DNA of 64,000 bases, taken from NCBI GenBank assembly GCA_030522415.1, contig CM060131.1:6931203-6995202 (forward strand), in the 5' to 3' direction. The notes beneath the pieces are model-generated. The model saw nothing but the letters and a program-made list of their open reading frames with translations, was not told where the DNA came from and did not search any database. Both the position numbers and the translations under genes were made by a program. Below, piece after piece: positions 396 to 63,422 of the stretch; within the stretch, counting starts at the first letter, position 1; the number at the start of each line of letters is the position of its first letter. The stretch is from Channallabes apus. Lineage: Eukaryota; Chordata; Actinopteri; Siluriformes; Clariidae.

Positions 396-1262
396 TCACC
401 GATTAACTAGACCTCTACTGAGACTATGAGCTATACTACAGGAAATGAGAGCAGCACCTTCCCGAGTGGGATGGACACCGTTCCGCCCTAACAGGCCAGC
501 TTTGCCCTCAAAGGTCTTCCAATTGTCTATGTAGCCCACATTATTTTTGGAGCACCACCTAGACATCCAGCGGTTCAGCGACCATAACCTGCTGTAAGCT
601 ATGTCGCCACGTCTCATTGGGATGGGACTAGAGCATATTACTTCATCGGACATCGCCTTCGCTAATTTAAATACCTCTGTAAAGTTACTCTTACTAACCT
701 CTGACTGACGAAGGCGTATATCATTAGCTCCAGCATGTACCACTATCTTAGAGAACCTGTGCTGTCCTAGAGCCCTAAGATTACCTTCTATGTCCGGTGC
801 TCTGGCTCCCGGGATACACCTAACCACTGCCGCTGGCGCCCCTAAAGGTCTAGCTAATGTCACGTGCCTCAGTATAGAGTCTCCTATAACCAGAGCTCTT
901 TCAGGATTCTCAGCGGGTGCAGCACTGAGGAGAGCAAACCTGTTGGTCACGTGAAGCGCAGAGGAGGTGTGCTCCGGTGGGCTAGCCTTAGCGTTAGCTT
1001 TGGCTGAACGAGTATGCCGCCGAGTCGTCACCCACTCGCCCCGCTGTGAGGGCTCTAATGCCGGAGTCGGGGGCTGATTATCTCTGCCTGTGGCACCCAG
1101 ACTGTCAGCTACGGGAATAACACTGCTCTCACACTGTCTAACCCTCTCTAAAGTCTGGATGCGCTCCTCTAACGCTGAAATCTTCTCCGTCAGAGTGCTC
1201 ACTAACACACACCTATCACAAATAAAGTTATCACTAATGACGGAGGAAGAATGTCTAAACAT
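396..1262 (-). CDS. LINE ORF1 with SGNH/GDSL esterase-like domain
   Basis: Intact 288-codon minus-strand frame with an ATG start. Residues about 20-45 form a heptad-like coiled coil, followed by a basic low-complexity linker. Residues about 125-280 have the SGNH hydrolase blocks: V-I-G-D-S-I-L (nucleophile Ser), a G-A-N-D-I-R block, and a late G-V-H-P-T block with the catalytic His. Esterase-type ORF1 proteins are known from CR1/L2-clade LINEs of fish and are thought to act as RNA/lipid-associated chaperones in the retrotransposition particle. The upstream end of the LINE lies between 1263 and about 1400, next to the retroviral gag start, so the LINE probably inserted in the leader of ERV-A. 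Confidence 0.8.
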   Translation of the reverse strand: MFRHSSSVISDNFICDRCVLVSTLTEKISALEERIQTLERVRQCESSVIPVADSLGATGRDNQPPTPALEPSQRGEWVTTRRHTRSAKANAKASPPEHTSSALHVTNRFALLSAAPAENPERALVIGDSILRHVTLARPLGAPAAVVRCIPGARAPDIEGNLRALGQHRFSKIVVHAGANDIRLRQSEVSKSNFTEVFKLAKAMSDEVICSSPIPMRRGDIAYSRLWSLNRWMSRWCSKNNVGYIDNWKTFEGKAGLLGRNGVHPTREGAALISCSIAHSLSRGLVNR

Positions 1263-1416
1263 CCTGCACTCTACACACTGAGTGAGTAAGTGGAGGTGGA
1301 TACTTCTGTGATTCTAAAAGAGTGTATATTGTTGTAAGTAAATTTAACCATTAAGTAAGTGCACAGGCGTGAAATAAAAAAATAAATATCTAAGTGATGA
1401 CATAGGATAAAGCATA

Positions 1417-8136: not shown

Positions 8137-8560
8137 AGGTGCCCAGAGAATCCTACCGGGGAGAACCAGTTGCCTATTTTGACATGGGTTCTTGTTCTTG
8201 CAGAGCAAGAACCCATGTTACATATTGACGTTGACGGTAAAAGTACACCCATGTTAGTTGATACAAGAGCGGTTTGTACATGCTTAAATTTAAGTCATGC
8301 CTCGCATCTCCCCATGTCTGGAAAATTTGCCAAGACAGTAGGATTCTCGGGTAAAAAGCAGTTGATCCCTATGACCGCTCCAGTCCGTCTACAAAACTAA
8401 CAATAAAAGTGTGACTATACCTGTATTAGTCTCAAGTCAGACACCGGTTAATTTATTAGAAAGAGATGCATTATGTAAATTAGGACTGCAAATATGGTGT
8501 TCTCCAGAAGGGGTGTACGTCGACCTGACAGGTATTAAAAATCAAATGGTAATGTCTGAG
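8137..8560 (+). pseudogene. pol: ERV-A protease
   Basis: Continues in the gag frame after TAG 8134-8136. An aspartic-protease core is visible: M-L-H-I-D-V-D-G then L-V-D-T-R-A, where the catalytic D-T-G-A has become D-T-R-A. The frame stops at 8400 and continues in another frame from about 8405 with the C-terminal protease block N-L-L-E-R-D-A-L-C-K-L-G, normally N-L-L-G-R-D. The frameshift and the loss of the active-site Gly make this inactive. Confidence 0.8.
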
Positions 8561-9060
8561 CCACATGCAAATGTGTATTGGATAGGACAGCTGGAAAAAG
8601 ATGTCAGTCAAATAATTCATAAGTGGGGAGAATTCATTAAAGCACAGATTCCTGAAGCACAGCTACCCTGTTCGGCTTTTCACTGTACAATGATGTATGA
8701 CCAATCTAAGGATACTGAATTAGAACGGAAATGGCAGGAATAGACAAAAGGGAACAAGGTTGAATTAATTACACAACACATCATCATAGGTCGGCAAGGA
8801 GCAGCTATCAGTGTAGATGAGTGTGATTTTGTGAAGACGTGGTTTAATGTAACTGATTCTGTTCCTCATGTGACATTGTATGTAGGACAAAACTGCAGTT
8901 CAAAGGACTTAGGACCAATGATGAAGAAAGCTACAGAAGTCCAGTGGGAGTCAACCATTAACCCGTTGATTTTTCATTCTGCAGATAAGAACTACATCAA
9001 GATCTTGTGTGGTAATAATTTGATTGGTACTCCTCAGGAAGTTGTAGTTAGCAGCAAGTC
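8561..9060 (+). pseudogene. ERV-A extra domain between protease and RT: CNPase/2H-phosphoesterase-like
   Basis: About 165 codons not expected in a standard retroviral pol. Two motifs stand out: F-H-C-T-M-M-Y-D (His codon at 8681) and P-H-V-T-L-Y-V-G (His codon at 8867), 62 codons apart, with G-x-x-G-A-A-I-x-V-D-E-C between them. Paired H-x-[ST]-hydrophobic motifs define the 2H phosphoesterase fold, and the H-C-T / G-A / P-H-V-T-L series is closest to CNPase catalytic domains. An in-frame TAG (8741-8743) breaks this copy. A matching domain occurs at the same place in ERV-B. The domain identity is inference from motifs; a profile search was not possible. Confidence 0.55.
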
Positions 9061-9715
9061 ACAGACACAAATGGCATCAGCATCAGAGGTAGTTGAGACG
9101 GCTGAAGATGAGTTGCATAGGCAAATGGAAAGTCAAGTCCCATCTGAATTATGGTCACAGCATGATACAGATGTAGGCCTAATTAAATCAGCCAGCCCAA
9201 TTCATGTACAGCTTAAACCAAATGTAAAGCTGCCCAGAGTAAGACAATATCCTTTGCGACCTGAGGCAGAAGCTGGAATAAAATACACAATTGAAGGTCT
9301 TGTTAAAGCATCTGTGCTGGAAGAGACAACGAGTTGTGGTAATACTCCAATTTTCCCGGTGATCAAGCCAGGTACAAATAAATGGCGTCTTGTGCATGAT
9401 TTGCGTGCAATTAATAATATAACAGAGGATTATCCAGCAGATGTTCCAAATCCACACACACTGCTAACCAATGTCCCTCCCGAAGCCAGATATTTCACTG
9501 TAATAGATCTTTGTTCAGCCTTTTTCAGTATTCCAGTGGCGGAAGAAAGTAGGTACTTGTTTGCGTTTACATATGCTGGTAAACAATATACATACCGACG
9601 CATGGCACAAGGATATCGTCATGCCCCACATATATTTAATCAGGTTTTGAAAGCTGATTTGGCAGATTTAATGATAGAAAGTAGTCTATTGCAATTTATG
9701 GATGACGTTTTAATA
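9061..9715 (+). pseudogene. pol: ERV-A reverse transcriptase, 5' part up to the catalytic box
   Basis: RT fingers and palm are open: R-Q-Y-P-L-R-P-E-A-E-A-G-I, W-R-L-V-H-D-L-R-A-I-N-N, V-P-N-P-H-T-L-L, F-T-V-I-D-L-C-S-A-F-F-S-I-P (first catalytic Asp) and Q-F-M-D-D-V-L-I (YxDD box with F-M-D-D). Immediately after this box the frame enters a TIR element at 9716. The continuing half begins at 15176 in a compatible frame. Motif style is gamma/epsilon-retroviral. Confidence 0.9.
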
Positions 9716-10213
9716 CAGTGGTTACAAAATCGGAGCGTCGTATGTAACGTCGCCGCTGCATTACGGGATGTGCATTTGCTGTGCATTTGCTGGCTTTTAC
9801 CAGTGAGTGGCGCTATATAACTACAGACTGACGCCTCATGCCTTAGTTCATTCTCTGCCTCAATAATACACGTAATAGCCGATAACATCAAGTGAAACAC
9901 TGTAGTTGACCGAATTCATAATCACAGTACTATAATTACAGTACAAATGTAGAATTCAAATTAAATCAAATCTTATTAAGATCAAATTTAAGCACAATAA
10001 ATATTAACACAGTGAGCCTTTAGATTTTATCACGTGTAATTAGAAAAGAAGTGTGTAGGGTTTTATTTAAATATAAATTTCTAAACCAATAAGATCAAAT
10101 AACACCAAGTTATTATTATAACAGGCTTACTTCGTCACTTATCAAAGACGTACACTTGCTTTCAAAGAAGTCGAGTGGCTTATTAACGTCTCTGGTGTGC
10201 ATTGTCTCTAAGT

Positions 10214-10283
10214 GGCCGCTTGGTGTAGCGGATAGTACACTCGGCCAGTGATCTACAAAGCGCCGGCTCGAATCCCGAGTGAT
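10214..10283 (+). other. tRNA-like Pol III unit in family-T copy 1
   Basis: A box TGGTGTAGCGG (10221-10231) and B box GGCTCGAATCC (10265-10275) at tRNA-like spacing. T-stem pairing is poor, so this is a tRNA-derived module, not a working tRNA gene. Confidence 0.6.
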
Positions 10284-11931
10284 GTTTTAAAATTGTTTTA
10301 TTTTAAAACTAAATAAAATGTTTTAAGTGCGCTTAAGGTAGAGTCTTATAAAGGCTATGTAGACTTATATAGTTTTATTATATATTTTTTGCACATTAAT
10401 CTGAGTCCTCATCTGTTAGATCTGTTTAGTTTTTTTTTTCCTGCCGGGACGAATGCGCGGTTCCATCCCTTTCCCGCCTATTCAGGGAGCCTACGGAGTG
10501 AGCGATTAACCATAGTCGAATCGATTGGTGTGCGTCCAGCTCACGTTACTCGTGTGCTATTAATGCCGGCTGGTGATAATTAACGTTAATATGATCTCGG
10601 GCTTGCTCACGATGCTCAACATCTATAAAAATAGCAAAGTATTGTGTATAGAGTGATAAAAAAAAACTATCTAACGCATGTTAGAAAACATAATTTCCTG
10701 CATTTTTTTCTGCTTCAGGAGTCAGTCTGATCTGAGACAGTGAGAGTAGAGGAAGGGGCAGATTCAGGACCAGGGAGGGAGCCGGAGACAGCAGAACAAA
10801 GAGATGATATTGCCAGCACCAGCACAGGGAGCACAGTTTTTAGTTTAGATCTCATGTTTACATTTTATTGTATGTTGATGGCTTGACTGTAAACAACATA
10901 AACAATGCAATAAATTTATAAAAATATATATTTATTGTCCCCCCTGCTGTTAAATGAAATTTGCGTTATTTTACATTAATGTTACGTTATTACATTATTA
11001 ACGTCGACAGAATAAAGTAAAGTTTTATTTCTGGAATTGATGCACGGGCTTCATCTTAGGCTTTTTTTTCTTTCGGTTCTTTCGTTTCTCAGCGCCGGAC
11101 TGTTGATGTCTCTTTCCAGGACCAGGCATATCGTTCAATTATTATAATTCTTTTGGCCAAATACTGTAGGCAGCCGTAACAGAGGTGAGGGCGCGCGCGT
11201 CATCACGTGTGCTTAGCCGACTCTGCGTTCACCGTAGACTTCAATATAGACGTTTATATTTTTGTTTATTTGTATATGTATGTTATTAATATAAATTTTT
11301 TAGAGATTGTGTGTGTGCGTGCACGGAGAGTTTGTGTTGATAAGTGTATGTCGATAAGTTGATAAGTGTATCAGAAAGCATTAAAATGTTCATTTGAATT
11401 AAAATGACACACACACGTCTGTATATACAGTATATCAATTACATATATATCAATTTCACTAGTTCGTTCATTCTATTTGAAGCTTCGGATGTTTGTTTTT
11501 TTCTTGGTTTGGTTAGATTAGTTCTGAACTCGCTTCCGTGAAACTATCGCTAAAACAATGTGTGTAAAACAAGAGTGTCATAGTCCATTGTTAGTTTTAA
11601 TGATCTGGCTGAAACTAATTATCACTACATAAGTACCCTAACACCATTGATCATGAGTCTCAGCTGAACCTAATTCTATACTTGTAACAGAAAATGTAGA
11701 TGCAGATTCCAAATGTGTATTTATATAATAGATAGATAGATAGATGTGTGTGTGTGTGTGTGTGTGTGTGTAGGCTCTACGCAGGGGCAAGAGAGGGCAG
11801 CGCACCCTTAAATGTCTGCACATGTTAATATATTCCTAAAATGTATATATTACAAGTTGATAAACTGATCTGCGGTAGCGGAAAAATCCGCTGAAAATGA
11901 AAGGCTGCAGCGCACGCGCGCACACACACAT

Positions 11932-11964
<33 letters not shown>

Positions 11965-12710
11965 GACTCCCTGTGTCCGCTCCCTTGAGCCCTGCGTCTG
12001 TCGGATTTCAGCTGTCACGGGGTGGAAAGACTTTGAAGCAGTTTATATATGAATCTAAGCTTGAACTTATCAGCATTGTAAATATATAATACTTTTCAAA
12101 TAAAATCGCTATTACTTTGACCCTGAAGTTTAGTTTAGCACACACAAAAAATAGAAAAGTCATTTCTGGTAAATCAACGGAATGTGTAGTATTTACAGTA
12201 ATTCATTAAAAAATGAATATACATTGTACAGTACACGGTAAACACGGGAAAGATTACAAAATGAAAAAACAAACAGTGTCTACTTTATAAACAGCTTAGT
12301 ATGTGCGTCGAGATGCTGAAATCCCTTGCATGTTTTTGCTTCCAAGTGGAGAGATATTTGACCGATAGCCTAGAACAAAAGATCTATAGGTGTGATCACA
12401 ACCCCCTCCGACCGACCGTGCCATCAATCACTGACCACCTCAGAAGTTCCCTCCAATGTATGGCTGCAATACTTGTTTTGCAAGTATTTTTAACACCATT
12501 CAAAGGCTTACAAGTTCCATTCAACATATAATGATGTCTCCACATGTTAATATATTCCTAAAATTTATATATTACAAGTTGATAAACTGATCTGCGGTAG
12601 CGGAAAAATCCGCTGAAAAAAGCACAGGCTACAGCGCGCGCGCGCGCACACAGACACACACACACACACAGACACACCTCCCTTGAGCCCTCGGTAAACA
12701 TCCAAGCACT

Positions 12711-12990
12711 GAGGCACGCAAATCCCCTGACCACAATAAGGTGGCAATCCCTCAGGGGGGAAGATGAAAAATACAAATTAAATAAATAAAACAAAATAAA
12801 ATATCCTTAATCCAGATTTTATCAATCAACGACATAATATTGATCTTAGCTGGATGGTCTAATTCTCAAAACCGTTTAACCTAAAGAAAAACTTAACACA
12901 CTATAACTAGAATATTTACAAAACTGAAAGGTTGTCTTATGTATAATAAAAAAACCTCATAACTCAAAAAGATCATATTATGTTTTTATA
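12711..12990 (+). repeat. Module shared with family X (inverted relative to 4090-4390)
   Basis: Matches the reverse complement of 4090-4390, including CCACAATAAGGTGGCAATCC. In copy 2 the match stops at 62310, exactly where a rearranged block begins. Confidence 0.8.
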
Positions 12991-14042
12991 TTTTTTTATT
13001 TTTTTTTTTTTTATAGTAACTGAACAGCTCTCTTCTCTCCAATCCACTCCTAAACCACAGTCTCCTATTTCTCTGTGCGTGCTCTGGAGCCTGTGAATGA
13101 ATACACGCAGCGGAGGTTTTGTAAACTGTAGAGATACAATAATTTTACTGCTGGAAAATCAGCATTTTATCTAATTTGAAATATAAACCTAATATTATCT
13201 GTTACTTAATATATTTTCTTTTGATGATGACCATAACAGCCTACTGCATTTCATTATTTATAATAACACAAAAACAATATTACAATATTTGATATTTTAA
13301 TATAAACTCGGTATCATTATCCTCCTTGTGTATGTGTAAAAAACATTTGATTTGTTCTATTTTTTATTCTGATAGTGTGCTCAATTTGTTTCTAGTAATT
13401 TATATATTTAAATTCGGATGCCTTTTACTGTTACAAATTTAACTCTTTGCTGTACAAGCCCTTGTGTTGTTGTTTGTGCTGCTGTTCTTTAATAATACCA
13501 ATAATCAGATACAAACAGTCTGTCTAAACGAAAATTAAGCAATGCTTCTTAACTCATCATTATGTGGATATTTTTCATGTTCGTTGGATAAAGTATGTAC
13601 TGTAATGATTTGGTCTACTCTGTACTGTATGTGCGTGAGAGAGAGGGGTGTCGCGGTCGTGAAACAAAGGCTCATTTCAGCTCATTCAGTTTCTCTGAAT
13701 GGATAGGTGAGAACAGCTGATTCACGGTGAATAATTTGCATTTGAGTGTTGCCAAGTGAAAAGAAGACAAACATCAAGACGAACAACATATAAAACTGAG
13801 ACAATATTTTAAAAAGAATCGCAATCAACCTGAACAGGTAAGCTGGAATAAAATCAGTAGCAGCATTAACTAAAGTAATTAGTAATTATTAGCTGCTACT
13901 GATTTTATGGACTCATCACGGTTAAATACGTTGGTCACATGGGACTCATTACGGTTGTATATCGTGCTCTGAATAATAAAATTTTTTGTTTGCTGTTTGT
14001 TTGCTGAGTAAAATTAAAATAGAACAATTTTTTAAAACAGCA

Positions 14043-14112
14043 TTATCCAGGATTCGAACCAATGCTTTGTACATCCCTGACCGAGTGCTCTAACCGCTAC
14101 ACCAACCAAGCA
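14043..14112 (-). other. tRNA-like Pol III unit in family-T copy 1
   Basis: On the minus strand: A box TGGTGTAGCGGTTAGAGC and B box GGTTCGAATCC. Same family as the unit at 10214 but opposite orientation. Confidence 0.6.
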
Positions 14113-14620
14113 CTAAGAGACAACACACCTCCGTGACGTTAATAAGCCACTCGACTTCTTTGAAAGCAAGCGTTAAATAAGTAACGAAGTAAGCCTGTTA
14201 TACAATTATACTATTTGCACGTGTATTTTATCTGTTTTAAACTTGGTGTCATTTGATCTCATTGGTTTAGAAATGTTTGTAAAAAAACTATTGTTATCAA
14301 AAATGTAACAGATGTAACACCGGACTTCATTACCCACAATGCATCTCCCGCACTGGACTACACTGCCGTAAACAGCTGTCGTAAATCAAAACTCCCGGTA
14401 CTGCAGATGGCCACCACTTTTCATCAGTATAATGACACACACACACACACACACGCAGCAGCAGCAGCAGACCGAGCCGTCACTCCCCTAAATTTAAAGA
14501 ATACAAACTGGTTGCGTGCGAGTTTGCTGTTTTTTCTATAGTATGCTGAAGCAAAATCAAAATACAACAATTTTTTTTATTTTAATTTTGCTATAATTAA
14601 AATAAAAAAATTTAAAATAT

Positions 14621-14694
14621 CATCCCTCGGGATTCGAACCGACGCTTTAAGTATCACTGACCGTGTGCTCTAACCGCTACACCAAGTAAGCACT
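14621..14694 (-). other. tRNA-like Pol III unit in family-T copy 1
   Basis: On the minus strand: TGGTGTAGCGGTTAGAGC then CGGTTCGAATCCC. It lies upstream of the CA-repeat/CAG-repeat module when read on that strand (14434-14470). Confidence 0.6.
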
Positions 14695-15173
14695 TAAAGA
14701 CAATGCACCCAAGTAACGTTAAATAAGGCAAGGTTAATAAAGCAAGCTTTGGATAAGTGACGAAGTAAGCTTGTTATAATAATAACTTGGTGTTATTTGA
14801 TCTCATTGGTTTATAAATTTATATTTAAATAAATAGTAAACTTGGCCGATTTCGTTATAATTTTGTTTGATGAGTGGGGCTTGAAAATTCTCTTGAAAAA
14901 TATGGTCATTTATTTCAGTTAATAAATCTACTATAATTTTTTTTTACTCATTATTGTACAGTACACATTAATAGCTCTGGTTCAGATTTTTCATGTTTGT
15001 TGTGGAAATTACCATCACTGTTGTATTTACTGCGATGAATGAAAATGTCACTTTGCGCCACCTGGCGGCCATTTTACGAATGACTTTGAAATGCAACTGA
15101 TTTATTTTGGCCGCTGTTGCCTTTAAACGGCGGTATACGCGGCGAGATCGCCATTCCAATTTTGTAACCACTG

Positions 15174-15960
15174 TATGCTCATCATCATTAGATGCATGCC
15201 ACAGGGATTCCATTAAGGTACTCAGCAAGCTAGGGCAAGGAGGTCATAAAGTGTCTAAAGCTAAACTGCAATACTGCAAGCCTCAAGTTGAATATTTAGG
15301 CCGGCTAATTTCACATGATACAATAGCCATAGCGCCTACTCAATTAGAAGGCATAAGTAAAGCACCGTTACCACAAACAGTTAAACAGTTGATGACTTTC
15401 CTAGGCCTAACAGGTTTCAGTGCTGACTGGATTGAGGAATATGCTGTAAAAACTGCTCCAATGAGGGAGATAATGACAGAAGAAGGACTGCAAAATTTAA
15501 GTGCTCCATTAAAATGGAACACAGATGCACGGTTAGCATTTGAGTCCATCAAGAAAGAAATGCAAACAGCGCCTACGTTAGGTATACCGGATTATACCAA
15601 ACCGTTCCATCTGTATGTGGCTAACCGAGCTGATGGATATGCCTCAGCTGTGTTGATGCAGGAAACCTGCAGTGGAAGAAGAAAACAGCCCTTAGCTTAC
15701 TACAGCACTAAGCTAGATAATGTAGCACAAGGCTACCCACCTTGCTACCAACAGGGGCTAGCAGCGGTACATTATGCATATGACAAAGCATCCACATTGA
15801 CTATGGGTTACCCGGTAACCATCTACACGCACCATAAAGTGGTAGAATTAATAGAACAGGGAAAATTTGTTCTTACTCAAGCACGTATTCTAGCATATTC
15901 TTCACTGCTCACATATCCCGACATTACCATAAAGAGATGTGACACAGTTATTGTTAAGCC
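15174..15960 (+). pseudogene. pol: ERV-A RT thumb/connection
   Basis: Resumes after the TIR element with a D-S-I-K-V-L-S-K-L segment, G-H-K-V-S-K-A-K-L-Q-Y-C, V-E-Y-L-G-R-L-I-S, then M-T-F-L-G-L-T-G-F and a connection-type region ending T-I-K-R-C-D-T-V. It then joins directly to the tail of integrase: RNase H and the integrase catalytic core are missing, so an internal deletion lies near 15955-15980. Confidence 0.85.
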
Positions 15961-15976
15961 AAGCTTAATAATATTT

Positions 15977-16651
15977 GTGCTAGTACAAAACTTAACTGGG
16001 TTGATGCTTTACAGCTTGCACTAATGAGCTATCGCATGCAAACTAACAAACACTCACTTAACCCCGCATGAAATGCTTACGGGTCGACCCATGCCTGTGC
16101 CATTCTGTAGAGGGACGTATAAAGGGCCACCGCTAGAACAATTACAACTGGAACTCAGATCATATATGAAGAAACTAACTGCCATACATGAAGCAATCTT
16201 TGTGCAGGAAAGGAACAATGAGACGGAGGAAGAGAAAGACGCTCCGTGTCCCATCACTCCAGGAGGCCAGGTCTATCTGCGAGTGTTCAGGAGAAAGTGG
16301 CATGAGCCCAGGAGTGAGGGGCCTTACAAAGTTGTAGCAGCCACTCCTACAGCAGTCCAAGTAGAAGGCAAAACCACCTGGTATCATTTAAACCATTGCA
16401 CAAGAGTCCCTAAAGTAAGTAAGGGAACAGGTGCAGAAGAAGAGGACCCACCCACCGACAGTGAAAACCTACAGGGTCTTGAAATCTGTGTGAAAGGGGT
16501 GGAGGAAATAAAGCAGAGAAATGGGGAAAATAAAGTGGATAGCATACCTAATGATCATTATCTTTCAGGTATTACACCAAGCCGTGGTCAGCTCACCTCT
16601 ACACAGCTCCAATCAGACTTCCCAAGAATTAAGTTTACAGCAGTTGACTAG
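15977..16651 (+). pseudogene. pol: ERV-A integrase C-terminal part
   Basis: After the deletion the sequence reads as the end of a retroviral integrase: an A-L-M-S-Y-R-M-Q region, H-E-M-L-T-G-R-P-M-P, and an SH3-like C-terminal domain with G-G-Q-V-Y-L-R-V-F, W-x-x-P-R-x-E-G-P-Y (GPY/F motif) and W-Y-H-L-N-H-C-T-R-V. Small indels occur near 16050. None of the D,D-35-E core is present. The frame overlaps the env start by about 130 bp, as is usual in gammaretroviruses. Confidence 0.8.
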
Positions 16652-17572
16652 GCATAATGAGATAACAGTATCCCTCCATACACAAAATATAACTTCTCGA
16701 ACGTTCATTAAGAGACAAAATGACCCAAAACTACCACCCATAAAGCCTCAATTAAATGTTGGTCAAAAAGTTCTTAGTAATAAAACTGTTGGCAGGAAAA
16801 TAAAATAAAAACTCTTAAACGTAGCTCAAAGTAATGAGTGATATAAATGGGCTGCCTACACAGCCAAGGAAAACAAAATAACTAGTCTTTAATTTGCACC
16901 CCATCCCCATTAGGAAAGGTTATAGTAGTACCTAATCCATATGACTTTAGACATTGTGCAGAGTTTACTCCGAATTTTTGTCATCTGCATGTCTTCCGAC
17001 GTCCACTGTGTCCAGCAGAATGTTTGGCAATATTAAGTAGTCCAGATTACTTCAATAACTACCATACACCTGAATGGGGACAATGGTGTCAGAAGTTGGA
17101 TATAAGAATTGAAGAACAAAAGATAGAATTCCCCTCTGAGTATGAAATGGATTATACACTTGAGTATGAATGCTTCAATAAAACAGTAGGAAATCATAGT
17201 GTGGGGGAATTTCAAGGTAATTGTATGATAATGTGGCACTTGGACACTGACTCTTTTACACGAATGGACGTTCATAAGAAAACGATACTTCATGCAACAG
17301 TCACAATGCAAGGGAATACAACTATAACACATAGCTGCATGAACCAAACATTATTGTTTCCACTAAAGTTCCGGTATGATGACCAATCAGTACCAGTAGC
17401 TGATTTTTTCTGGCTTTGTGGGGGAACACTATTGAGGGCAACATTACCAAAATGTTGGAAAGGTATCTGTGCTAGAGTCCGGATGATCCAGGAAATGTCA
17501 ATAGCGGATTGGGACATAGAACAGCCGGTGATGGGTAACTCAGAAGCCAATCATAGAGTGAAGAGGGCTTAA
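16521..17572 (+). pseudogene. env: ERV-A env, signal peptide and surface subunit
   Basis: ATG at 16521 within the end of pol, followed by a hydrophobic signal peptide (I-A-Y-L-M-I-I-I-F-Q-V). The frame breaks at 16808 and the surface subunit continues in another frame from about 16915 with many Cys and N-glycosylation sites (N-K-T, N-H-S, N-T-T, N-Q-T) and an F-F-W-L-C-G-G motif. It ends in a furin-type site R-V-K-R followed by Ala and a TAA (17570-17572). Beyond the stop the same frame is open into the transmembrane subunit, so this single stop separates the two subunits in this copy. Confidence 0.8.
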
Positions 17573-18322
17573 CAACCTGATCCCAATTCATTAGGTATAC
17601 CTCTGGGTTGTCCTACTGAGTCTATATACACTATAGACTCAGTAGGACAACCCAGAGGTATACCTAATGAATTTAAAGCCAGAGATGAGGTAAAATCTGG
17701 ATTTGAGTCAATTTTTATATGGATAACAACTAACAAAAATGCTGAATGGATTAATTATATTTACTATAATCAACAGAGATTTATTAATTACACAGAATAT
17801 GCTTTGGCTGCATTAGGAGAGCAATTAGTGGCTACTAGTACAATGACCTGGCAAAATAGACAAGCACTGAACTGGTTATTGGCTGAGAAAGGAGGTGTGT
17901 GCATCCTGTTTGGTGATCAATGTTGTACTTATATTCCTAACAATACAGCGCCTGATGGGACTTTTACCAAAGCCATGAATCAACTTAAAAATCTGAGATG
18001 GGAAGTAACTGAAAATGCTGGGAGGGATAATAAAATATGGGACTGGCTAGATCTGAAACTGGGAGCTTGGGGAGCATGGTTTGCTAAATTTGGTATGTTC
18101 TTGGGATTTGCTATATTAATAGGAGGATTGTTGTTTTGTTGTGTACTTCCTATATTAAAGTCCTTGGTCATAAAAGCTACAGTTCAACAAATGGAGGTAT
18201 TAAAGTGGCAAGATGAGAAAATACCCCTAACCTATGATAAAGACATTTACAGCTCAGACTGTGATTCCCGAGAATCAGGAGGAGATTCAGGCACCTCGGA
18301 TGAGGACGAAGAAGATGATTGA
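17573..18322 (+). pseudogene. env: ERV-A env, transmembrane subunit
   Basis: Same frame as the surface subunit. Features in order: a region replaced in part by an inverted duplication (17585-17673), a helical heptad region with Q-N-R-Q-A-L-N-W-L-L resembling the immunosuppressive-domain position, then C-I-L-F-G-D-Q-C-C (CX6CC, gamma-type covalent subunit linkage), a long hydrophobic anchor (F-G-M-F-L-G-F-A-I-L-I-G-G-L-L-F) and an acidic cytoplasmic tail ending in a run of D/E. Coding is open to the natural-looking stop. Confidence 0.85.
17585..17673. repeat. Perfect inverted repeat (42-bp arms, 5-bp spacer) inside env
   Basis: Left arm 17585-17626, spacer 17627-17631, right arm 17632-17673; the arms are exact reverse complements. 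The right arm reads as the expected continuation of env, so the left arm is probably the inverted copy. The repeat lies directly after the subunit-cleavage site. Confidence 0.95.
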
Positions 18323-24412: not shown

Positions 24413-26012
24413 CAAACCGGATTCCAAAAAAGTTGGGACACTAAACAAATTGTGAATAAAAACTGAATGCAATGATGTGGAGATGGCAAATGTCAATATT
24501 TTATTCAGAATAGAACATAGATGACAGATCAAAAGTTTAATCCGAGAAAATTTATCATTTTAAAGGAAAAATATGTTGATTCCAAATTTCACGGTGTCAA
24601 CAAATCCCAAAAAAGTTGGAACAAGTAGCAATAAGAGGCTGGAAAAAGTAAATTTGAGCATAACGAAGAGCTGGAAGACCAATTAACAGTAATTAGGTTA
24701 ATTGGCAACATGATTGGGTAAAAAAAATAGCTTCTCAGAGTGGCAGTGTCTCTCAGAAGCCAAGATGGGTAGAGGATCACCAATTCCCACAATGTTGCGC
24801 AGAAAGATAGTGGGGCAATATCAGAAAGGTGTTACCCAGCGAAAAATTGCAAAGACTTTGCAGTTATCATCATCAACTGTGCATAATAGCATCCGAAGAT
24901 TCAGAGAATCTGGAACAATCTCTGTCCGTAAGGGTCAAGGGGGTAAAACCATACTGGATGCCCGTGATCTCCGGGCCCTTAAACGACACTGCACCACAAA
25001 CAGGAATGCTACTGTAAAGGAAATCACAGAATGGGGTCAGAAATACTTCCAGAAACCATCGTCAGTGAACACAATCCGCCGTGCCATCCGCCGTTGCCAG
25101 CTGAAACTCTACGGTGCAAAGAAGAAGCCATTTCTAAGCAAGATCCACAAGCACAGGCGTTTTTATTGGGCCAGGGATCATTTAAAATGGAATGTGGCAA
25201 AATGGAAGATTGTTCTGTGGTCAGACGAGTCACGATTCGAAGTTCTTGTTGGAAATGTGGGACGCCATGTCATCCGGACCAAAGAGGACAAGGACAACCC
25301 AAGTTATTATCAACGCTCAGTTCAGAAGCCTGCATCTCTGATGGTATGGGGTTGCATGAATGTGTGTGGCATGGGCAGCTTGCATGTCTGGAAAGGCACC
25401 ATCAATGCATAAAAATATATTCAGGTTCTAGAACAACATATGCTCCCATCCAGACGTCATCTCTTTCACGGAAGACCCTGAATTTTTCAACAAGATAATG
25501 CCAGACCACCTTCTGCATCAATCACAACATCATGGCTGCGTAGGAGAAGGATCCGGGGACTGAAATGACCAGTCTGCAGTCCAGATCATTCCCCTATAGA
25601 GAACATTTGGCGCATCATAAAGAGGAAGGTGCGACAAAGAAGGCCCAAGACGATTGAACAGTTAGAGGCCTGTATTAGACAAGAATGAGAGAGCATACTG
25701 TACCTATTTCTAAACTTGAGAAACTGGTTTCCTCGGTCCCCAGACGTCTGTTGAGTGTTGTAAGAAGAAGGGGAGATGCCACACAGTGGTGAAAATGGCC
25801 TTGTCCCAACTTTTTTGGGATTTGTTGACACCATGACATTTTGATTCACCATATTTTTCCCTTAAAATTATACATTTTCTCAGTTTAAACTTTTGCTCCG
25901 TGATTTATGTTCTATTCTAAATAAAATATTGACATTTGCCATCTCCACATTATTGCATTCAGTTTTTATTCACAATTTGTTTAGTGTCCCAACTTTTTTG
26001 GAATCCGGTTTG
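24413..26012 (+). mobile_element. Tc1/mariner element with long IR/DR inverted repeats
   Basis: 1600 bp, flanked by TA on both sides (24411-24412 and 26013-26014). Terminal inverted repeats of about 210 bp start CAAACCGGATTCCAAAAAAG at both ends and match with scattered changes. The outer direct-repeat core TCCAAAAAAGTTGGGAC recurs inside each arm as TCCCAAAAAAGTTGG(A/G)AC, the IR/DR arrangement known from Sleeping Beauty-type Tc1 elements, where the repeats bind transposase. Confidence 0.95.
24765..25792 (+). pseudogene. Tc1-like transposase, inactivated
   Basis: Starts at the ATG of M-G-R-G-S; about 342 codons end to end, the usual size. N-terminal paired-like helix-turn-helix (R-R-K-I-V-G-Q-Y-Q-K-G then Q-R-K-I-A-K), second HTH near residue 70-110, then DDE domain: W-S-D-E-S-R-F (first Asp), F-Q-Q-D-N-A (second Asp) and S-P-I-E-N-I-W (Glu). 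The frame is closed by TAA at 25410 and by further stops and shifts downstream, so all catalytic residues remain but the protein cannot be made whole. Confidence 0.92.
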
Positions 26013-34193: not shown

Positions 34194-36008
34194 ATGGCGG
34201 AGGTTCCCCCCCGGGACGAATTTTGGGGGGGCGTGATTACCATCTCCAACGAGCTGGCGGACTGGCTAGAGGACAGCGAGGAGGACATGTACCACAGCTG
34301 GGAGTACAGCTTGCTGATGGAGCAGGAGGGCTTGCGGGAAGACAGCGAGGAGCACAGCGAGACAGAGTTCTGGCAAAGCTGGTAGAACTGCAGGTACGCC
34401 GAGGAGGCGGAGAGGCAGGAGGAGAAAGCGACACAGAGGGAGAGGATGGCGCAGCAGAGCTGGGAAGGCTGCGGGCTCGCCATCCGGCGCACACCGCCGA
34501 GAGGTGTAGCAGCCGAGGGAGAGACAGAGGAGTTCTACAGGCAGTGGGCAGAGCGCAACGAGGAGTGCATTCGTGACCTGCGCGAGCAGGTGCTGCAGCT
34601 CCAACTGCAGTTCGTCCAGGTTCGGGAGAACCAGCCTGTAGTCCCGGAAGCGATCCCCCTCCCGGATCTGGACGATGCACTCCTCCCCCGGCCACTGCCT
34701 GAACCTGCCACGGAGGACAGTGCGCTAGCGTGTCAGCAGCCGCTGTGCCATGCACCCGTTCTTCCGCCGCCTCCCGGCTTTGAGGATGGAGAGTTAGCGT
34801 GTCAGCAGCCGCTGACCGCCGCACTCATCATGCCGCCGCCTCCCGGCTTTGAGGACAGCGAGCCAGCGTGTCAGCAGCAGCTGACCGACGCTCCCGTTCT
34901 GCCGCCGCCTCCCGGCTTCGAGGACAGCGAGCCAGCGTGTCAGCAGCCGCTGTCCGACACATGCGTTCTTCTGCCGCCTCCCGGCTTTGAGGACGACGTT
35001 GAGCCGTGGAGCACACTGCACGCTCCAACGCCGCTGTCGAGCGCACTGCACGCTCCAACGCCGTCGTCGAGCGTCGTGCACGCTCCAGAGCCGTCGTCGA
35101 GCGTCGTGCACGCTCCAGAGCCGTCGTTGAGCGTCGTGCACGCTCCAGAGCCGTCGTCGAGCGCACTGCACGCTCCAACGCCGCTGTCGAGCGCACTGCA
35201 CGCTCCAACGCCGCTGTCGAGCGCACTGCACGCTCCAACGTCGCTGTCGAGCGCACTGCACGCTCCAACGCCGCTGTCGAGCGCACTGCACGCTCCAACG
35301 CCGCTGTCGAGCGCACTGCACGCTCCAACGCCGCTGTCGAGCGCACTGCACGCTCCAACGCCGCTGTCGAGCGCACTGCACGCTCCAACGCCGTCGTCGA
35401 GCGCACTGCACGCTCCAGAGCCGTCGTCGAGCGTCGTGCACGCTCCAGAGCCGTCGTCGAGCGTCGTGCACGCTCCAGAGCCGTCGTCGAGCGTCGTGCA
35501 CGCTCCAGAGCCGTCGTCGAGCGTCGTGCACGCTCCAGAGCCGTCGTCGAGCGCACTGCACGCTCCAGGGCCGTCGTCGAGCGCACTGCACGCTCCAGGG
35601 CCGTCGTCGAGCGCACTGCATGCTCCAGGGCCGTCGTCGAGCGCAGTGAGCGCTCCAACGCCTCCGTCGAGCGCAGTGAGCGCTCCAACGCCTCCGTCGA
35701 GCACTCCAACGCCTCCGTCGAGCGCAGTGAGCACTCCAACGCCTCCGTCGAGCGCAGTGAGCGCTCCAACGCCTCCGTCGAGCGCAGTGAGCGCTCCAAC
35801 GCCTCCGTCGAGCGCAGTGAGCGCTCCAACGCCTCCGTCGAGCGCAGTGAGCGCTCCAACGCCTCCGTCGAGCACGTCTCCGGGACCGTCACCCAGCCTC
35901 CTGGTCAGGAGGCCGAAGGTAGTACTGTGGGGTGGGTGCCCGGGGCCTCCGGCGATGCTCCGGAGGAGCATTTCTTTGGGGGGGAGTACTGTGACGGTTA
36001 ACCCCTAG
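34194..36008 (+). CDS. Repeat-rich gag-like protein of the LTR element (one in-frame TAG)
   Basis: From ATG 34194 the frame is open to 36008 apart from a TAG at 34383-34385 (about 604 codons in all). N-terminal acidic W-rich part, then a Q/E coiled-coil (residues about 125-150), then four copies of a P-P-P-G-F-E-D / A-C-Q-Q unit, then about 28 copies of a 10-residue unit of the S-S-A-L-H-A-P-T-P type, ending inside the 3' LTR. Position and the coiled coil suggest a remnant gag, but no capsid or zinc knuckle is seen. Function unknown. Confidence 0.5.
35010..35880 (+). repeat. 30-bp coding minisatellite
   Basis: About 28 tandem units built on GAGCGCACTGCACGCTCCAA plus CGCCGCTGTC; blocks of four unit types are clustered (ALHAPTP, VVHAPEP, ALHAPGP, AVSAPTP), one unit is shortened. 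The length is a multiple of three, so the frame is kept. Confidence 0.95.
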
Positions 36009-45903: not shown

Positions 45904-48620
45904 TCAACGTTGCATCGTACTATGGTGGTTAAGCAAAGAACTACATAGTTGTACGGGAAACGCACCCCTGATCTGTCTTTCCCATATTCCACCAAAGTGA
46001 GATCCAGAAGGTGGATTGAATATCCACTGTATGTTCCTGTGAGTGAGGAAGCTTTCAATTCGTAACTGATTCCATTGCTGAATAGCCTCGCGCAGTTCAG
46101 TCTCAGCGCCTATTAAGTTTGTTTCATTGTCACTTCTCATAACTGACACCTGACCTCTCCTGCTTATAAAGCGTTGCATGGCGTTCACACAAGAGTCTGT
46201 GTCAAGCGAGTAAACGATTTCAATGTGCACAGCTCTTGTTGTCAGACAAGTGAAAAGTACGCCATATCTTTTAACGTTACTTCTGCCACGTTTGACCTCG
46301 AAGGGTCCAAAATAGTTTACTCCCACGTTAGTAAAGGGTGGATGATCTGGTGTTATTCCATCACTTGGCAGTTCTGACATTTTTTGCTCACATGTTTTAG
46401 CTCTAGACTTTCTGCATATCACACACCTGGAGAGAAACTGTCTGTTAGCAGACAAGTGAGTTAGCAGTCGGAATCCAGTATTTCTGCCGCAATTCTGAAA
46501 GCATGTAATTTCTGCCACTGTGTCCAATCTTGTCATGAACTTCTCTTAATATTAATGTTACAATATGTGAGTCTTTAGGTACAATGACTGCATGTTTAAC
46601 GTGGTCTGGCATTGCGGACTTGCCGAGACGTCCTCCGACTCTCAGCAATCCATCCTGTAGTACTGGGTCCAGTTTGGACAAGCAACTGTTTCTTTTTACA
46701 GATGCCTTTTGTTTTTGCTGTGTGGGAATTCCCTGTTTGAATTCTGCTGCTGCTTTACCCTTTTGCAACGTGAGAATTTCTTCCTTAAAATTTTGTCTTT
46801 GAGTAAATTTAATGATTTCGTTTTCTGCTCTTGTTAGGTCTTGAACTGTTAGAGACTTGTGATTTTCTGTCTTTGGGTTATCTACTTGTGTTTTGACCCT
46901 TTCTGTTTATTGTTTGAGCATGTCTCTGATGCGAAGGATCCAGGCAACGGATCTTTTTAACGTGCCAATCAGAGTGATAGTTAATCAATTTACTCACTGC
47001 GTCTGTGCTTTCTGTAATGCTCACAATATTCGCTGAAGCTGAGAGCTTATTTTTACTGTCTTTTTCTTTCATCGACATGTCATAAATGTTCTCAGGCCAT
47101 TTGCACTCTGCTTCTTTGAGAAAGGAGGGACCATGGATCCAGTTAACATTTTTCATAAACTTTTCACAGGATGCCCCCCTGGATGCAGAATCAGCTGGGT
47201 TTTTTGAGGTATTGACATACCTCCATTGCTGTGACTTTCTTGAGTCTCTTATAATGTGATTCTGTTGGCCACAAAGGTTTTAAAATGAAGTGTTTTATTG
47301 CCAATGTATCTCAAGACAGTTGTACTGTCAGTCCAAAACATAGAGTCCAGCAATTTCAATTCTAGCTGTTCTTTCAACATTTTGTCATTTTTTACAGCGA
47401 CGATTGGCGCAGTCAGTTCCATTAGTGGAATGGTGGTTTGTTTCAGGGGTGCTACACGGGAGTTCCCCATCATGAATGCACAATGTGTAAGTCCATCAGC
47501 ATTTACTAACCTGAGGTATGAGACAACTCCGTATCCCATTTCACTTGCATCCGAGGAGTGGTGGAGTTGTGCTGTAGCTGTAACTCCGAAGTCGGCTGGT
47601 TTTATGCATCTTGCTATGCTGAACTCGGACAGTTGGTGCAGCTCTTGCAGCCAAGTTTTCCATGCCTCTGCAAACTGCTCGAGAATGTCATCATCCCAGG
47701 CTCGTTTTTCTTTACATAACTGCTGCATTAAAATTTTAGACGGCAGTATGACAGGTGATTGAAAGCCTAAAGGGTCGTATATTGAGCTAGTGATTGACAG
47801 GATTCCTTGTCTTGTCACAGGTCGTTCTTTTAAACCAATCTTAAACTTGAACATGTCTGAATCAATGCACCACAGCACCCCCAAAGCTCTCTCAATGGGC
47901 AGTGCATCTTTACTCCAGTCTAAGTCTCTCATTTCTTTGATCATTTCGCTTTCGGGTATGGAAGTCAGTAGGGTACATCGTTGCTTGCCCACTTAGTGAG
48001 GTTGAACCCTCCGCTTGCACAGAGGCTTGTGAGATCATTGTACAGGGTGACTGCTTGATCATAGGTTGCAACGGACTTCAAGCAGTCGTCGACGTAAAAG
48101 TTTTTAAGTACTGTTTTAACTGCCACAGCAGGTGCTTTGCTGCGGTTTTCTTGCGCTGTCTTTCTAAGGGCGAAGTTAGCAACACTAGGAGATGATTTTG
48201 CACCGAACAAGTGAACTACCATCTTATACTCAACTAAATCTTGGTTCACGTCTCCGTTCGGCCACCATAGGAAGCGCCATGATGCCGTATGTACCACACA
48301 TGACCGTCTTGGAGGTTTACGTGATGTGTAGGGACCCTGACTGCATGACCCTTTTTTAGCATGTCATTCATGAAGTTTGTGTACTCCTCGTGAAAGGAGC
48401 TGTGGCTGCTAAGTTTTCATTTAAGGTTTAATACACGTTGCATAGCTGAAATTTGGTTATTTGGCATTTGAATGACTGCCTTTTTTAGTGGAAGGCCGAT
48501 GTGGTAGTGATTATTTATGAACTGCAATGAGTGATTCACGGAGTCTAAAAACTGATAATCTTCCTGTGAGCACTCGGCCTTATCATCACAATTTCGTATA
48601 TCAAGTAGACTCCACTTTTC
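45904..48620 (-). pseudogene. pol: BEL/Pao retrotransposon pol, decayed
   Basis: Minus-strand pieces in pol order from 48620 downwards: RT N-part (L-P-N-N style block near 48470), RT palm with F-Y-V-D-D-C-L-K-S (near 48095), connection/RNase H-like part with L-G-V-L-W-C-I-D-S-D and Y-D-P-L-G-F-Q-S-P-V (47.25-47.99 kb), integrase zinc region with H-D-K-I-G-H-S-G and C-V-I-C (46.4-46.7 kb), and integrase core with N-Y-F-G-P-F, R-S-D-N-E-T-N and N-P-P-S-G-S-H-F-G-G-I-W-E-R (45.9-46.3 kb). These are BEL/Pao signatures. Several stops and frame changes, no LTRs found on either side; the upstream end stops shortly before the ERV-B LTR. Confidence 0.88.
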
Positions 48621-52470: not shown

Positions 52471-52832
52471 TGTCACGAACAAACCGGCATGATCAGATAG
52501 CTTTAGCAGTTAGCCCTGTAGCGTGAATGGTAAACCCAAACGCGGATAAACACGAGCGGGCAGGATAATCACACGATTTGCTATAAGGACTCTCACACTC
52601 AATGAGCAAAGGAAAGACACAATCTAACCCTAGTCCTATAAACACACACTCAGTCTGAAAAGATAGCCAAGAAAGTGAGTACTCACATATACGGGAACGA
52701 TTCCGAAAAGACCTGGGCATAACTCAATGACAGAGCGATGTGCGGCGCCATCTTGTTTCCTTTTATGCTTTCAGGTTCGCGACCGTCTTACTTCCGGGTC
52801 CCAATGCCGGTCGCGGCTGAGTGTGCATGACA
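52471..52832 (-). mobile_element. Probable solo LTR (Ty3/gypsy-like) inside ERV-B pol
   Basis: On the minus strand a 362-bp segment starting TGTCATGCAC and ending TTCGTGACA, with a GCATAAAAGG TATA-like site. Terminal TGTCA/TGACA inverted repeat. No coding. The flanks do not show a clear 5-bp duplication; a direct repeat (TCACGAAC.AACCGG) links its edge with flanking 52428-52450. Confidence 0.5.
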
Positions 52833-53290
52833 CAGACACTCGTGGAAGCAGCACATGACCGCATTAACCCTACTAACACAAGTTTTATGTCTGAACATGA
52901 TTTGCACTGCACTGCACACATTCATTTTGAAAAGCCTTATAATGAGTATGAGAGTGAATGGTTTTACAGACCTACAAAATACAGACATGCTATTGTTTCA
53001 AGATCTATATTGGGACCAATATAGATGCGCCGTATCTATAGACCTCTCTAGAGTAAGTGTAAGAGCTGGCATGCCATACCCATTTACCATAGAAGGGTCA
53101 CATCCTCATGTGTCATTATCCAAAAATAACAAAAATGATTGGCAAGAATTGGGAACGTGGGTGTTGAATAACCTCAGAATTAATGATTGGGTTCGTGTGG
53201 GAGACACAGAGACTTGTTATAGCAAAACAAATTACACATACAAGGTCGGTCTGAACTGGTTGGTAGAATCTAAGAGAGCTGTAGAGATAA
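52833..53290 (+). pseudogene. ERV-B extra domain: CNPase/2H-phosphoesterase-like
   Basis: Follows the solo LTR and precedes RT. First motif L-H-C-T-A-H-I-H-F (His codon at 52905) in one frame, then a frame change and C-A-V-S-I-D-L-S, then S-H-P-H-V-S-L (His codon at 53107). Motif order and the hydrophobic stretch between them match the domain in ERV-A, including an aromatic-x-W segment just upstream (52375-52395, V-Y-E-W-I). The two retroviruses differ at most positions here but keep the His and Thr/Ser, suggesting a selected catalytic site before decay. Inference from motifs; this copy is broken. Confidence 0.5.
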
Positions 53291-54594
53291 TTCCGGTGTC
53301 AACATTGAATCATGAGAGAGTGAATTGGAGCTTGCCACAGATAGAGATAAGTGACCCAAGGCTAAAAACAGTGCCAGAGAGTCTTTGGGCAAAGGAAAAA
53401 CATGATGTGGGACTCGTATGTGATGTTGAACCAGTAATAATTACACGGAAGTCAGATTATAGGCCTTGTAAGACACAGTATCCATTGAAAACTGAGGCGA
53501 TAAAAGGCATTACTCCCGTGTTTAATTCTTTATTAAAGGCTGGAGTGATAATTCCATGTGAACAGTTAGAACCAGTTAGAACACCAATCTTTCCAGTGAA
53601 AAAAGCAAAAATTCCAGGTGAACCTGAAGATTGGAGATTTGTGCAGGACCTTCAAGCAATAAATGATGCAATAATACCAAGAACTCCAAGTATCCCGAAT
53701 CCATACACTATCCTAGCACAAATCCCACCGGGCAGTCGGTGGTTTTCAGTTGTAGATTTGGCCAATGCATTTTTTAGCGTTCCTATTCACCCTGACAGCC
53801 AGTACTGGTTTGCATTTTCATTTAAGGGGAAATCATATACTTTCACGAGATTATGTCACAAGGCATGTCTATCTAAATTATAGTTTGTACAACAGCAGGT
53901 AAAATTCTTGGGGCATCTGATATCAGAACAAGGTAAAACTTTAGGTCCAAGCAGAGTAAAAGCAATTCAAGAAATGCCAAAACCAAAAAAAAAGCAACTT
54001 ATGTCATTTTTGGGCATGTGTTCATATTGCAGAACATTCATTCCTAACTATGCAATCCTCGAGGCTCCCTTGAGTGAGATAGCTCATGGGAAGGGTCTAC
54101 AGGCCCACAGTGCACTTAGTTGGACTCAAGAGGCAGAAAAGGCATTCACTAATTTGAAATTGGCACTACAAACCACACCTACTTTGGGGATCCCCAATCC
54201 AAATAAACCTTTTGTGCAGACAGTGGATCAAAAGCGAGGTTGTATGACATCTGTGCTATTGCAAGACCATGGGAGTAAACTCAGGCCGGTGGCCTATTTT
54301 TCAGCAAAACTAGATCCTGTAGCAGCAGGGTTACCAATGTGTTTAAGAGCCATTGCAGCTGCTGAAAAAGCTGTAACAGCTTTTAGGGACATAGTAGGGT
54401 ACAGTGATTTAACTTTATTGGTTCTACATGCAGTTTCACTACTTCTCCTCGAACATAAAAAGGCACACATGTCAATAGCACGATGGTTGAGGTATAACAC
54501 AATTTTATTAGAGATTGTTACAGTAAAAAGATGCACTGTGTTTAATCCTGCTACTTTTCTTCCTACAGAAGGCGATGGTGAACCACATGACTGA
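53291..54594 (+). pseudogene. pol: ERV-B reverse transcriptase and connection, catalytic box deleted
   Basis: RT blocks present: Q-Y-P-L-K-T-E-A-I-K-G-I, T-P-I-F-P-V-K-K, W-R-F-V-Q-D-L-Q-A-I-N, I-P-N-P-Y-T-I-L, F-S-V-V-D-L-A-N-A-F-F-S-V-P, Y-T-F-T-R-L. Directly after this the sequence jumps to L-S-K-L and, past a TAG (53881-53883), V-K-F-L-G-H-L-I-S. The region holding the YxDD box is missing while the frame is kept. The connection domain then runs to 54594. Confidence 0.88.
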
Positions 54595-56681: not shown

Positions 56682-57318
56682 ATGAGAAATCAATTCCAAC
56701 AACACCCCAAAGTAATCTGGGTGGCCTTAGGAATAATAATAGTTATGCTTATCCTGATATGCTTTACTGGAACACTGAGAGAAACGGACATGGTAAAGTC
56801 TATTTAACAAACCCAAGCCACATGCATTTAACTAGAATAAAGAGAAGAGACAGCATGATAAAAAGGCATAACGCTAATCTCAATAGATGTGTTGGGAATT
56901 GGGGATGTGCTCTATCATTAGACATTGCTGATAATATGACAGATATACACAATGGCTCGTGCTGGATATGCCATGCCATGTCCTCGAACTGGGTAGCATT
57001 GCCCCTTAATAATGTCACAGCAGCAGAAGCAAATGCAGACAACTCGTCTTGTATCATACCGATAACCACCATGGCCATCTTACAGATATCTGCATACTAC
57101 AAACAAATAGGGAGGCCAAACTCAGCAGTCCCTGGGTGTAATTATTCCAATAACCTATGTTTTGATGTGCCAGGGAGCTATTGCTCCCCATTGCCTGTTA
57201 AGAAATATATAGACAATTCTACTTATATGGTCCCATGGCAAAAAGGAGACATTTGTGTTGTGCAAGATCAAAGGGAAAATGGGGAACCTGACTTAGGATG
57301 GTCTGAGTACACCACTTA
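56682..57318 (+). pseudogene. env: ERV-B env, leader and start of surface subunit
   Basis: ATG at 56682 with a hydrophobic leader (V-I-W-V-A-L-G-I-I-I-V-M-L-I-L), a stop after about 40 codons, and the surface subunit in the next frame from about 56760. It has C-W-I-C (CXXC, the gamma-type motif involved in subunit linkage), several Cys and N-glycosylation sites (N-M-T, N-G-S, N-V-T, N-S-T). The frame is cut at 57319 by the family-T element. Confidence 0.85.
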
Positions 57319-57833
57319 CAGTTGTTACAAAATCGGAGCATCGTATGTAACGTCGCCGCCGCATTACGGCATGTGCATTTGCTGTGCATTTGCTTGCTTT
57401 TACCACTGAGTGGCGCTATATAACTACAGACTGACGCATCATGCCTTACATTCTCTGTCTCATTAATGAGACGCGTCCCATTAAATAATACACGTAGTAG
57501 CCCATAACATCAAGTGAAACACTGTAGTTGATCGAATTCATAATCACAGTACTATAATTACAGTACAAATGTAGAATTCAAATTAAATCAAATCTTATTA
57601 AGATCAAATTTAAGCACAATAAATATTAACACAGTGAGCCTTTAGATTTTATCACGTGTAATTAGAAAATAAGTGTGTAGGGTTTTATTTAAATATAAAT
57701 TTCTAAACCAATAAGATCAAATAACACCAAGTTATTATTATAACAGGCTTACTTCGTCACTTATCAAAGACGTACACTTGCTTTCAAAGAAGTCGAGTGG
57801 CTTATTAACGTCTCTGGTGTGCATTGTCTCTAA

Positions 57834-57904
57834 GTGGCCGCTTGGTGTAGCGGGTAGAACACTCGACTAGTGATCTACAAAGCGCCAGTTCGAATCCCGA
57901 GTGA
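57834..57904 (+). other. tRNA-like Pol III unit in copy 2
   Basis: TGGTGTAGCGGGTAGAAC and CAGTTCGAATCCC; counterpart of 10214-10283. Confidence 0.6.
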
Positions 57905-58427
57905 TGTTTTAAAATTGTTTTATTTTAAAACTAAATAAAATGTTTTAAGTGCGCTTAAGGTAGAGTCTTATAAAGGCTATGTAGACTTATATAGTTTTAT
58001 TATATATTTTTGCACATTAATCTGAGTCCTCATCTGTTAGATCTGTTTAGTTTTTTTTTCCTGCCGGGACGAATGCGCGGTTCCATCCCTTTCCCGCCTA
58101 TTCAGGGAGCCTACGGAGTGAGCGATTAACCATAGTCGAATCGATTGGTGTGCGTCCAACTCACGTTACTCGTTTGCTATTCATGCCGGCTGGTGATAAT
58201 TAATGTTAATATGATCTCGGGCTTGCTCACGATGCTCAACATCTATAAAAATAGCAAAGTATTGTGTATAGAGTGATAAAAAAAAAAAAAACTATCTAAC
58301 GCATGTTAGAAAACATAATTTCCTGCATTTTTTTCTGCTTCAGGAGTCAGTCTGTTCTGAGACAGTGAGGGTAGAGGAAGGGGCAGATTCAGAACCAGGG
58401 AGGGAGCCGGAGACAGCAGAACAAAGA

Positions 58428-61505: not shown

Positions 61506-61536
<31 letters not shown>

Positions 61537-63307: not shown

Positions 63308-63351
63308 TTGCTGAGCAAAATTAAAATAGAACAATTTTTTAAAAAAAGCAT

Positions 63352-63422
63352 CATCCAGGATTCGAACCGACACTTTGTAAATCCCTGACCGAGCGCTCTA
63401 GCCGCTACGCCAACCAGGCACT
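63352..63422 (-). other. tRNA-like Pol III unit in copy 2
   Basis: Minus strand TGGCGTAGCGGCTAGAGC and CGGTTCGAATCC; counterpart of 14043-14112. Confidence 0.6.

Follow-up and report, generated by a model that had tools for sequence, protein, structure and literature searches.

A probable remnant of a CNPase-type 2H phosphoesterase between the protease and reverse transcriptase of a fish endogenous retrovirus

Retroviruses carry few enzymes (some have a dUTPase), and a further pol enzyme with a conserved active site would reveal a host chemistry that fish retroviruses must overcome. Does ERV-A, an endogenous retrovirus (ERV) of the fish Channallabes apus, hold the remains of such an enzyme? 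ERV-A lies in a stretch of 64,000 nucleotides (GCA_030522415.1, contig CM060131.1, positions 6,931,203 to 6,995,202 of the forward strand; the window, within which all positions below are counted), and an earlier note made from the letters alone had proposed a 2H-phosphoesterase-like domain between its protease (PR) and reverse transcriptase (RT). We conclude, with a probability of about 0.88, that positions 8567-9031 are the remnant of a CNPase-type 2H phosphoesterase, fused in frame between PR and RT of a fish epsilon-like ERV. Its parts are as follows.

8567..9031, + strand: predicted CNPase-like 2H phosphoesterase domain, interrupted by a stop codon (matches to a profile of 13 relatives; fold from the relatives' models)
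8678..8701, + strand: catalytic motif 1, F-H-C-T-M-M-Y-D (translation; H kept in 37/38 and T in 37/38 relatives; aligns, sub-threshold, with CNPase L-H-C-T-T-K-F)
8741..8743, + strand: in-frame TAG (translation)
8798..8818, + strand: G-A-A-I-S-V-D, its first G invariant (profile position G78, kept in 38/38)
8864..8887, + strand: catalytic motif 2, P-H-V-T-L-Y-V-G (translation; H kept in 37/38 and T/S in 35/38 relatives)

The frame 1 translation of 8561-9060 bears out both motifs, with correct coordinates: the histidine codons stand at 8681 and 8867, 186 bases or 62 codons apart, and the G-A-A-I-x-V-D segment lies between the two motifs. The window copy and its relatives have an H-x-[ST]-hydrophobic motif in each half, as is typical of the 2H superfamily. 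The TAG splits the domain, so that no single unbroken frame covers both motifs, and the two halves independently match a domain profile (alignment A3) built from 13 intact relatives, at E 3.5e-18 for 8375-8740 (profile positions 1-58) and E 3.7e-34 for 8744-9817 (61-156). The placement given in the earlier note also holds, with a piece of the protease upstream and an RT (RVT_1, E 4.9e-18) downstream.

The relatives carry much of the argument. A search with the RT-side piece of ERV-A (P0002) returned 161 proteins at E<=0.001 among 3685 candidates, and the best 120 of these were used; the named ones are mostly from teleosts, alongside two rays (Hypanus and Narcine), one turtle and some oddly labelled entries. 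The domain profile, whose 13 members are themselves within this set, matches 54 of the 120, and 38 cover both motifs. Across those 38 rows the four catalytic residues are present as H in 37, T in 37, H in 37 and T/S in 35, two glycines occur in all 38 and a tryptophan of the first strand in 34 of 35; the His/Thr pairs, on whose presence in other copies the earlier note had made its reading depend, are thus conserved. The exceptions to the full catalytic set are real: in a second alignment (A2, 52 rows chosen with the motifs in view) the set is complete in 36 of the 42 rows that have residues at both histidine columns and incomplete in 6. Searching with the profile A3 gave 20 proteins of 86-286 residues, and cellular CNPase is absent from the named ones among them. 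A domain-only protein search with P0007 found itself alone among 45 candidates, which says nothing on absence.

That the domain is a module set between PR and RT can be seen in distances along the same proteins. Both the protease G-R-D and the W-x-D-[VI]-G at the start of RT are present in 33 of the 120 homologues, and the distance between them is 223-290 residues in 19 of the 21 domain-bearing rows and 35-66 residues in 11 rows without the domain. The two outliers are P0103, at 21 residues, where G-R-D falls downstream of the domain match, and P0114, at 179, where the domain match is partial; P0013 yielded no distance. Single database proteins of relatives hold protease, 2H domain and RT together. 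Presence of the domain was mapped on an RT tree with 57 rows, of which 46 carry it and 11 lack it; 47 of 102 rows were set aside because their state was unknown, and splicing in a gene model may conceal a domain. The label requires five changes on this tree, at least four of them forced by starred branches. Either gain and loss of the domain recur, then, or some gene models skip it, and no clear history emerges.

The predicted fold supports the same assignment. Structure prediction, which the earlier note had called for, was carried out on intact relatives, the window's broken copy itself being left unfolded, and the AlphaFold2 models show a 2H fold whose closest counterpart is the catalytic domain of CNPase type. 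All 50 listed VIA matches of a model dominated by the domain are 2H proteins, two of which we take to be so from general knowledge; with the whole model, the best 50 Foldseek matches in the PDB are all RT and protease and are uninformative on the domain. In a sub-threshold alignment of A3 with the PDB, the relatives' H-x-T falls on CNPase L-H-C-T-T-K-F, and an aromatic residue five positions past the first histidine (Y in 34 and F in 3 of 38) occupies the place of CNPase F235. R307 of CNPase, which precedes the second histidine by two residues, is without a counterpart: the 37 residues at that position are V (19), A (11), T (4) and one each of C, I and S. The fish retrovirus domain is 13-14% identical to the vertebrate CNPase catalytic domain and, as the earlier note had remarked of its spacing, is shorter, with 62 residues between the histidines against 79 in CNPase (H230/H309); the CNPase residue names used here are taken from PDB titles. 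Identity to goldfish RICH is 12%.

Sequence profiles point to 2H as well, but weakly. Searched directly against Pfam and against PDB sequences, the window pieces gave no 2H family. With A3, the PDB yielded 17 sequences at E<=10, namely one plant WRKY domain and 16 2H proteins (Arabidopsis CPDase at 0.32 and 15 CNPase rows at 0.57-1.8); a larger profile (A5, 21 rows) did no better, placing WRKY first (0.4), CPDase at 0.61 and 14 CNPase rows at 1.0-2.1. Pfam scans of the 13 relatives matched 2_5_RNA_ligase2 in three (best E 0.0016), LigT_PEase in two, Acb1, tRNA_lig_CPD and 2H-SAK in one each, and seven unrelated families in one row apiece; among 21 relatives the corresponding counts were five, two, one, one and, for 2H-SAK, two. 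The earlier note had named two Pfam families to be sought, and they fared differently: 2_5_RNA_ligase2 was matched in 4 of 10 relatives below its curated cut-off (best 19.0 bits against 27), with the other 2H families weaker, and the CNPase family PF05881 was not matched at all at E<=10 (13 relatives) or E<=1 (21 relatives), in searches whose HMMER filters discard most matches above about 0.1. PHROG 755, 'RNA ligase', matched 4 of the 13 relatives (best E 0.0029), which is suggestive only. Sub-threshold profile matches to Integrin_b_cyt, AAA_lid_PRS2_C and OsWRKY45 were rejected, being scattered and without structural support. Because the profiles stay below threshold, membership of the 2H superfamily rests on fold and motifs, and the designation 'CNPase-type' rests on fold.

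Those sub-threshold scores are one of two points that weigh against a 2H domain and in favour of chance motifs in a linker; the other is that shuffling the residues of the stretch 200,000 times produced a pair of H-x-[ST]-hydrophobic motifs 55-70 residues apart in 512 cases (0.26%). Conservation of the motifs across relatives is much stronger evidence than this frequency, and with the catalytic positions kept in 35-37 of 38 relatives, and with the fold results also speaking against it, this explanation is hardly credible and we reject it. If the segment is a CNPase-type 2H domain, as we favour, then in a working virus it would be translated within the pol polyprotein, between flexible linkers at which the viral protease could release it, and would be packaged with RT, acting early after entry or inside the core. 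From the likeness of its fold to CNPase we infer that its His-x-Thr/Ser pairs would both face a single cleft, as in CNPase, and that the domain would cleave 2'-linked phosphodiesters or open 2',3'-cyclic phosphates without metal, as CNPase and its kin do. The substrate class that we favour, at roughly even odds, would be nucleotides or RNA ends that bear a 2',3'-cyclic phosphate.

Other roles have to be weighed against this one. The domain might serve immune evasion, destroying, once packaged, an immune messenger such as cyclic GMP-AMP (cGAMP) or another cyclic dinucleotide raised on sensing of reverse-transcribed DNA, in the manner of the avipox LigT-like phosphodiesterase (PDE) and phage Acb1; in the accessible text of PMC11410667, cGAMP is cleaved by pigeonpox and phage T4 enzymes of the 2H fold, and in that of PMC8406329 it is left uncleaved by the coronavirus, rotavirus and AKAP7 enzymes tested. 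We regard this role, and cGAMP as the substrate, as possible but unlikely. A role as an antagonist of linear 2',5'-oligoadenylate (2-5A), which the domain would cleave as coronavirus NS2 and rotavirus VP3 do, is a very doubtful alternative: known viral 2',5'-phosphodiesterases belong to the same superfamily (PMC8406329, accessible text), and coronavirus ORF2 and ORF4b proteins appear among the best 50 of 202 matches to the domain-dominated model in BFVD (E 0.071 and 0.28), but structural similarity to those viral proteins is weak. A further point against it is that teleosts are for the most part not known to have OAS and RNase L. The accessible part of PMC6307210 does not settle that point. 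We give equally slim prospects to a non-enzymatic module that binds RNA or Gag and retains its active site for that purpose only, for example as a decoy for host CNP. Host CNP is tabulated, in the part of PMC7471995 consulted, as an interactor of HIV-1 Gag (MA) and an inhibitor of particle formation; however, few positions of the domain are as well conserved as its two His-x-Thr/Ser pairs, a degree of conservation that binding alone would hardly demand.

A 2H or CNPase domain in fish retroviruses is a known kind, according to reviews that cite papers of 2002 and 2009. In the accessible text of PMC9503650, the 2H phosphoesterase domain of fish retroviruses and walleye dermal sarcoma virus (WDSV) is credited to Mazumder et al. 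2002, and in that of PMC4977317 epsilon-like fish ERVs with CNPase are credited to Basta et al. 2009. The review PMC4977317 describes additional open reading frames, whereas the ERV-A domain is fused between PR and RT. ERV-A shares the 2H domain with WDSV, but the domain-sized walleye matches bear Env names and that of ERV-A is in pol. The viral LigT-like PDEs (coronavirus NS2/NS4b, rotavirus VP3, avipox PDE and phage Acb1) share the 2H fold and are likewise viral. A term search found none of phosphodiesterase, phosphoesterase and CNPase in the accessible text of a shark ERV paper (PMC4422223) or a zebrafish ERV paper (PMC8672886), and a literature search at the level of titles and abstract openings, with subscription papers mostly outside its reach, turned up no study that tests the function of a retroviral domain of this kind. 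What we add is the placement between PR and RT within single proteins, the counts of motif conservation, the structural match at the level of CNPase, a second copy in the window (ERV-B, below) and a hint of an Env location in walleye viruses. This hint comes from BFVD, where the domain-dominated model has three matches at E<=0.001, including an unnamed 1072-residue piece, Q2VF30_1 (3.1e-16, 26% identity), and where the walleye retrovirus Env polyproteins Q9WHI8 and A4GTG3 give domain-sized matches to the CNPase-like model. WDSV Gag-Pol scores high when PR and RT are part of the model and is absent from the best 50 of 202 matches of the domain-dominated model. Resting on record names and alignment lengths, without aligned target ranges, these matches hint that the walleye viruses may carry the module in Env. 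It is conceivable, if rather improbable, that the CNPase-like domain, far from being picked up only now and then, is a pol enzyme of long standing that a wide range of fish retroviruses (of teleosts and rays) has retained, lost in some lineages and found in Env in the walleye viruses, and that, entering in the particle, it clears a 2',3'-cyclic or cyclic-dinucleotide signal directed against reverse transcription.

The rest of ERV-A is laid out as follows.

8137..8400, + strand: protease, N-terminal piece, frame 1 (Pfam RVP E 0.0038, 17.9 bits, cut-off 20.7; aligns with the protease of the intact relative P0006 at 8200-8391)
8375..8566, + strand: protease, C-terminal piece, and linker, in another frame (RVP 14.4 bits, sub-threshold; P0006 alignment resumes at 8399 in frame 2)
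9152..9718, + strand: RT, N-terminal part (RVT_1 E 4.9e-18, residues 208-325 of the 8744-9820 piece; relatives align to about 9715)
9714..15172, no strand assigned: repeat-rich insertion within RT (DNA 91-97% shared with 57317-64000 in several pieces; pol homology restarts at 15173)
15173..18193, + strand: RNase H, integrase C-terminus and remains of Env (RT_RNaseH_2 E 6.4e-16; MLVIN_C E 4.1e-11; TLV_coat E 3.2e-06)

ERV-A is broken in three places: PR changes frame, a stop codon cuts the 2H domain and RT holds an insertion. This copy is unable to make the enzyme. The frame change lies inside the protease, since the P0006 alignment passes into frame 2 at 8399. The last Env-like match ends at 18193, and direct-repeat searches gave no pair resembling long terminal repeats (LTRs). 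A class I pol with an integrase C-terminus of murine leukaemia virus type is found in both elements (MLVIN_C, E 1.1e-12 in ERV-B), and the best named matches to the RT-side piece of ERV-A are teleost proteins; by sequence, ERV-A is classed as a fish epsilon-like (class I) ERV, epsilon and gamma not being separated by a tree. Scanning P0002 against viral contigs confirmed no relative. The repeat family that interrupts the RT of ERV-A (9714-15172; pieces 91-97% identical) also follows the Env region of ERV-B (57317-64000).

ERV-B spans about 50.7-57.4 kb, has an integrase core as well as MLVIN_C, and retains a degraded copy of the domain.

52905..53118, + strand: remains of the 2H domain of ERV-B, whose H-C-T (52905) and P-H-V-S-L (53104) lie in separate frames (profile matches, translations)

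The downstream piece (52831-53880) matches the domain profile at E 1.2e-06 (profile positions 93-149) and the upstream piece (52821-53021) weakly, at E 0.014 (33-70).

Several further elements lie in the window. A 588-residue open reading frame at 58641-60407 (-) encodes a reverse transcriptase (RVT_1, E 2.1e-30) and appears to be a non-LTR element, and a Pao/BEL-type retrotransposon occupies 47249-47992 (-) and 45904-46545 (-) (Peptidase_A17, E 1.4e-41; integrase core sub-threshold). At 34386-36008 long open frames run on both strands, with no Pfam match at E<=0.001; the 540-residue frame on the + strand covers a tandem array of 30-base units (35003-35873, 29 copies) and another array of 69-base units. 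A piece of a Tc1/mariner-type transposase lies at 24714-25412 (+) (HTH_Tnp_Tc3_2, E 7.2e-13), and a 305-residue frame at 396-1313 (-) contains a GDSL-like lipase domain (E 4.4e-13).
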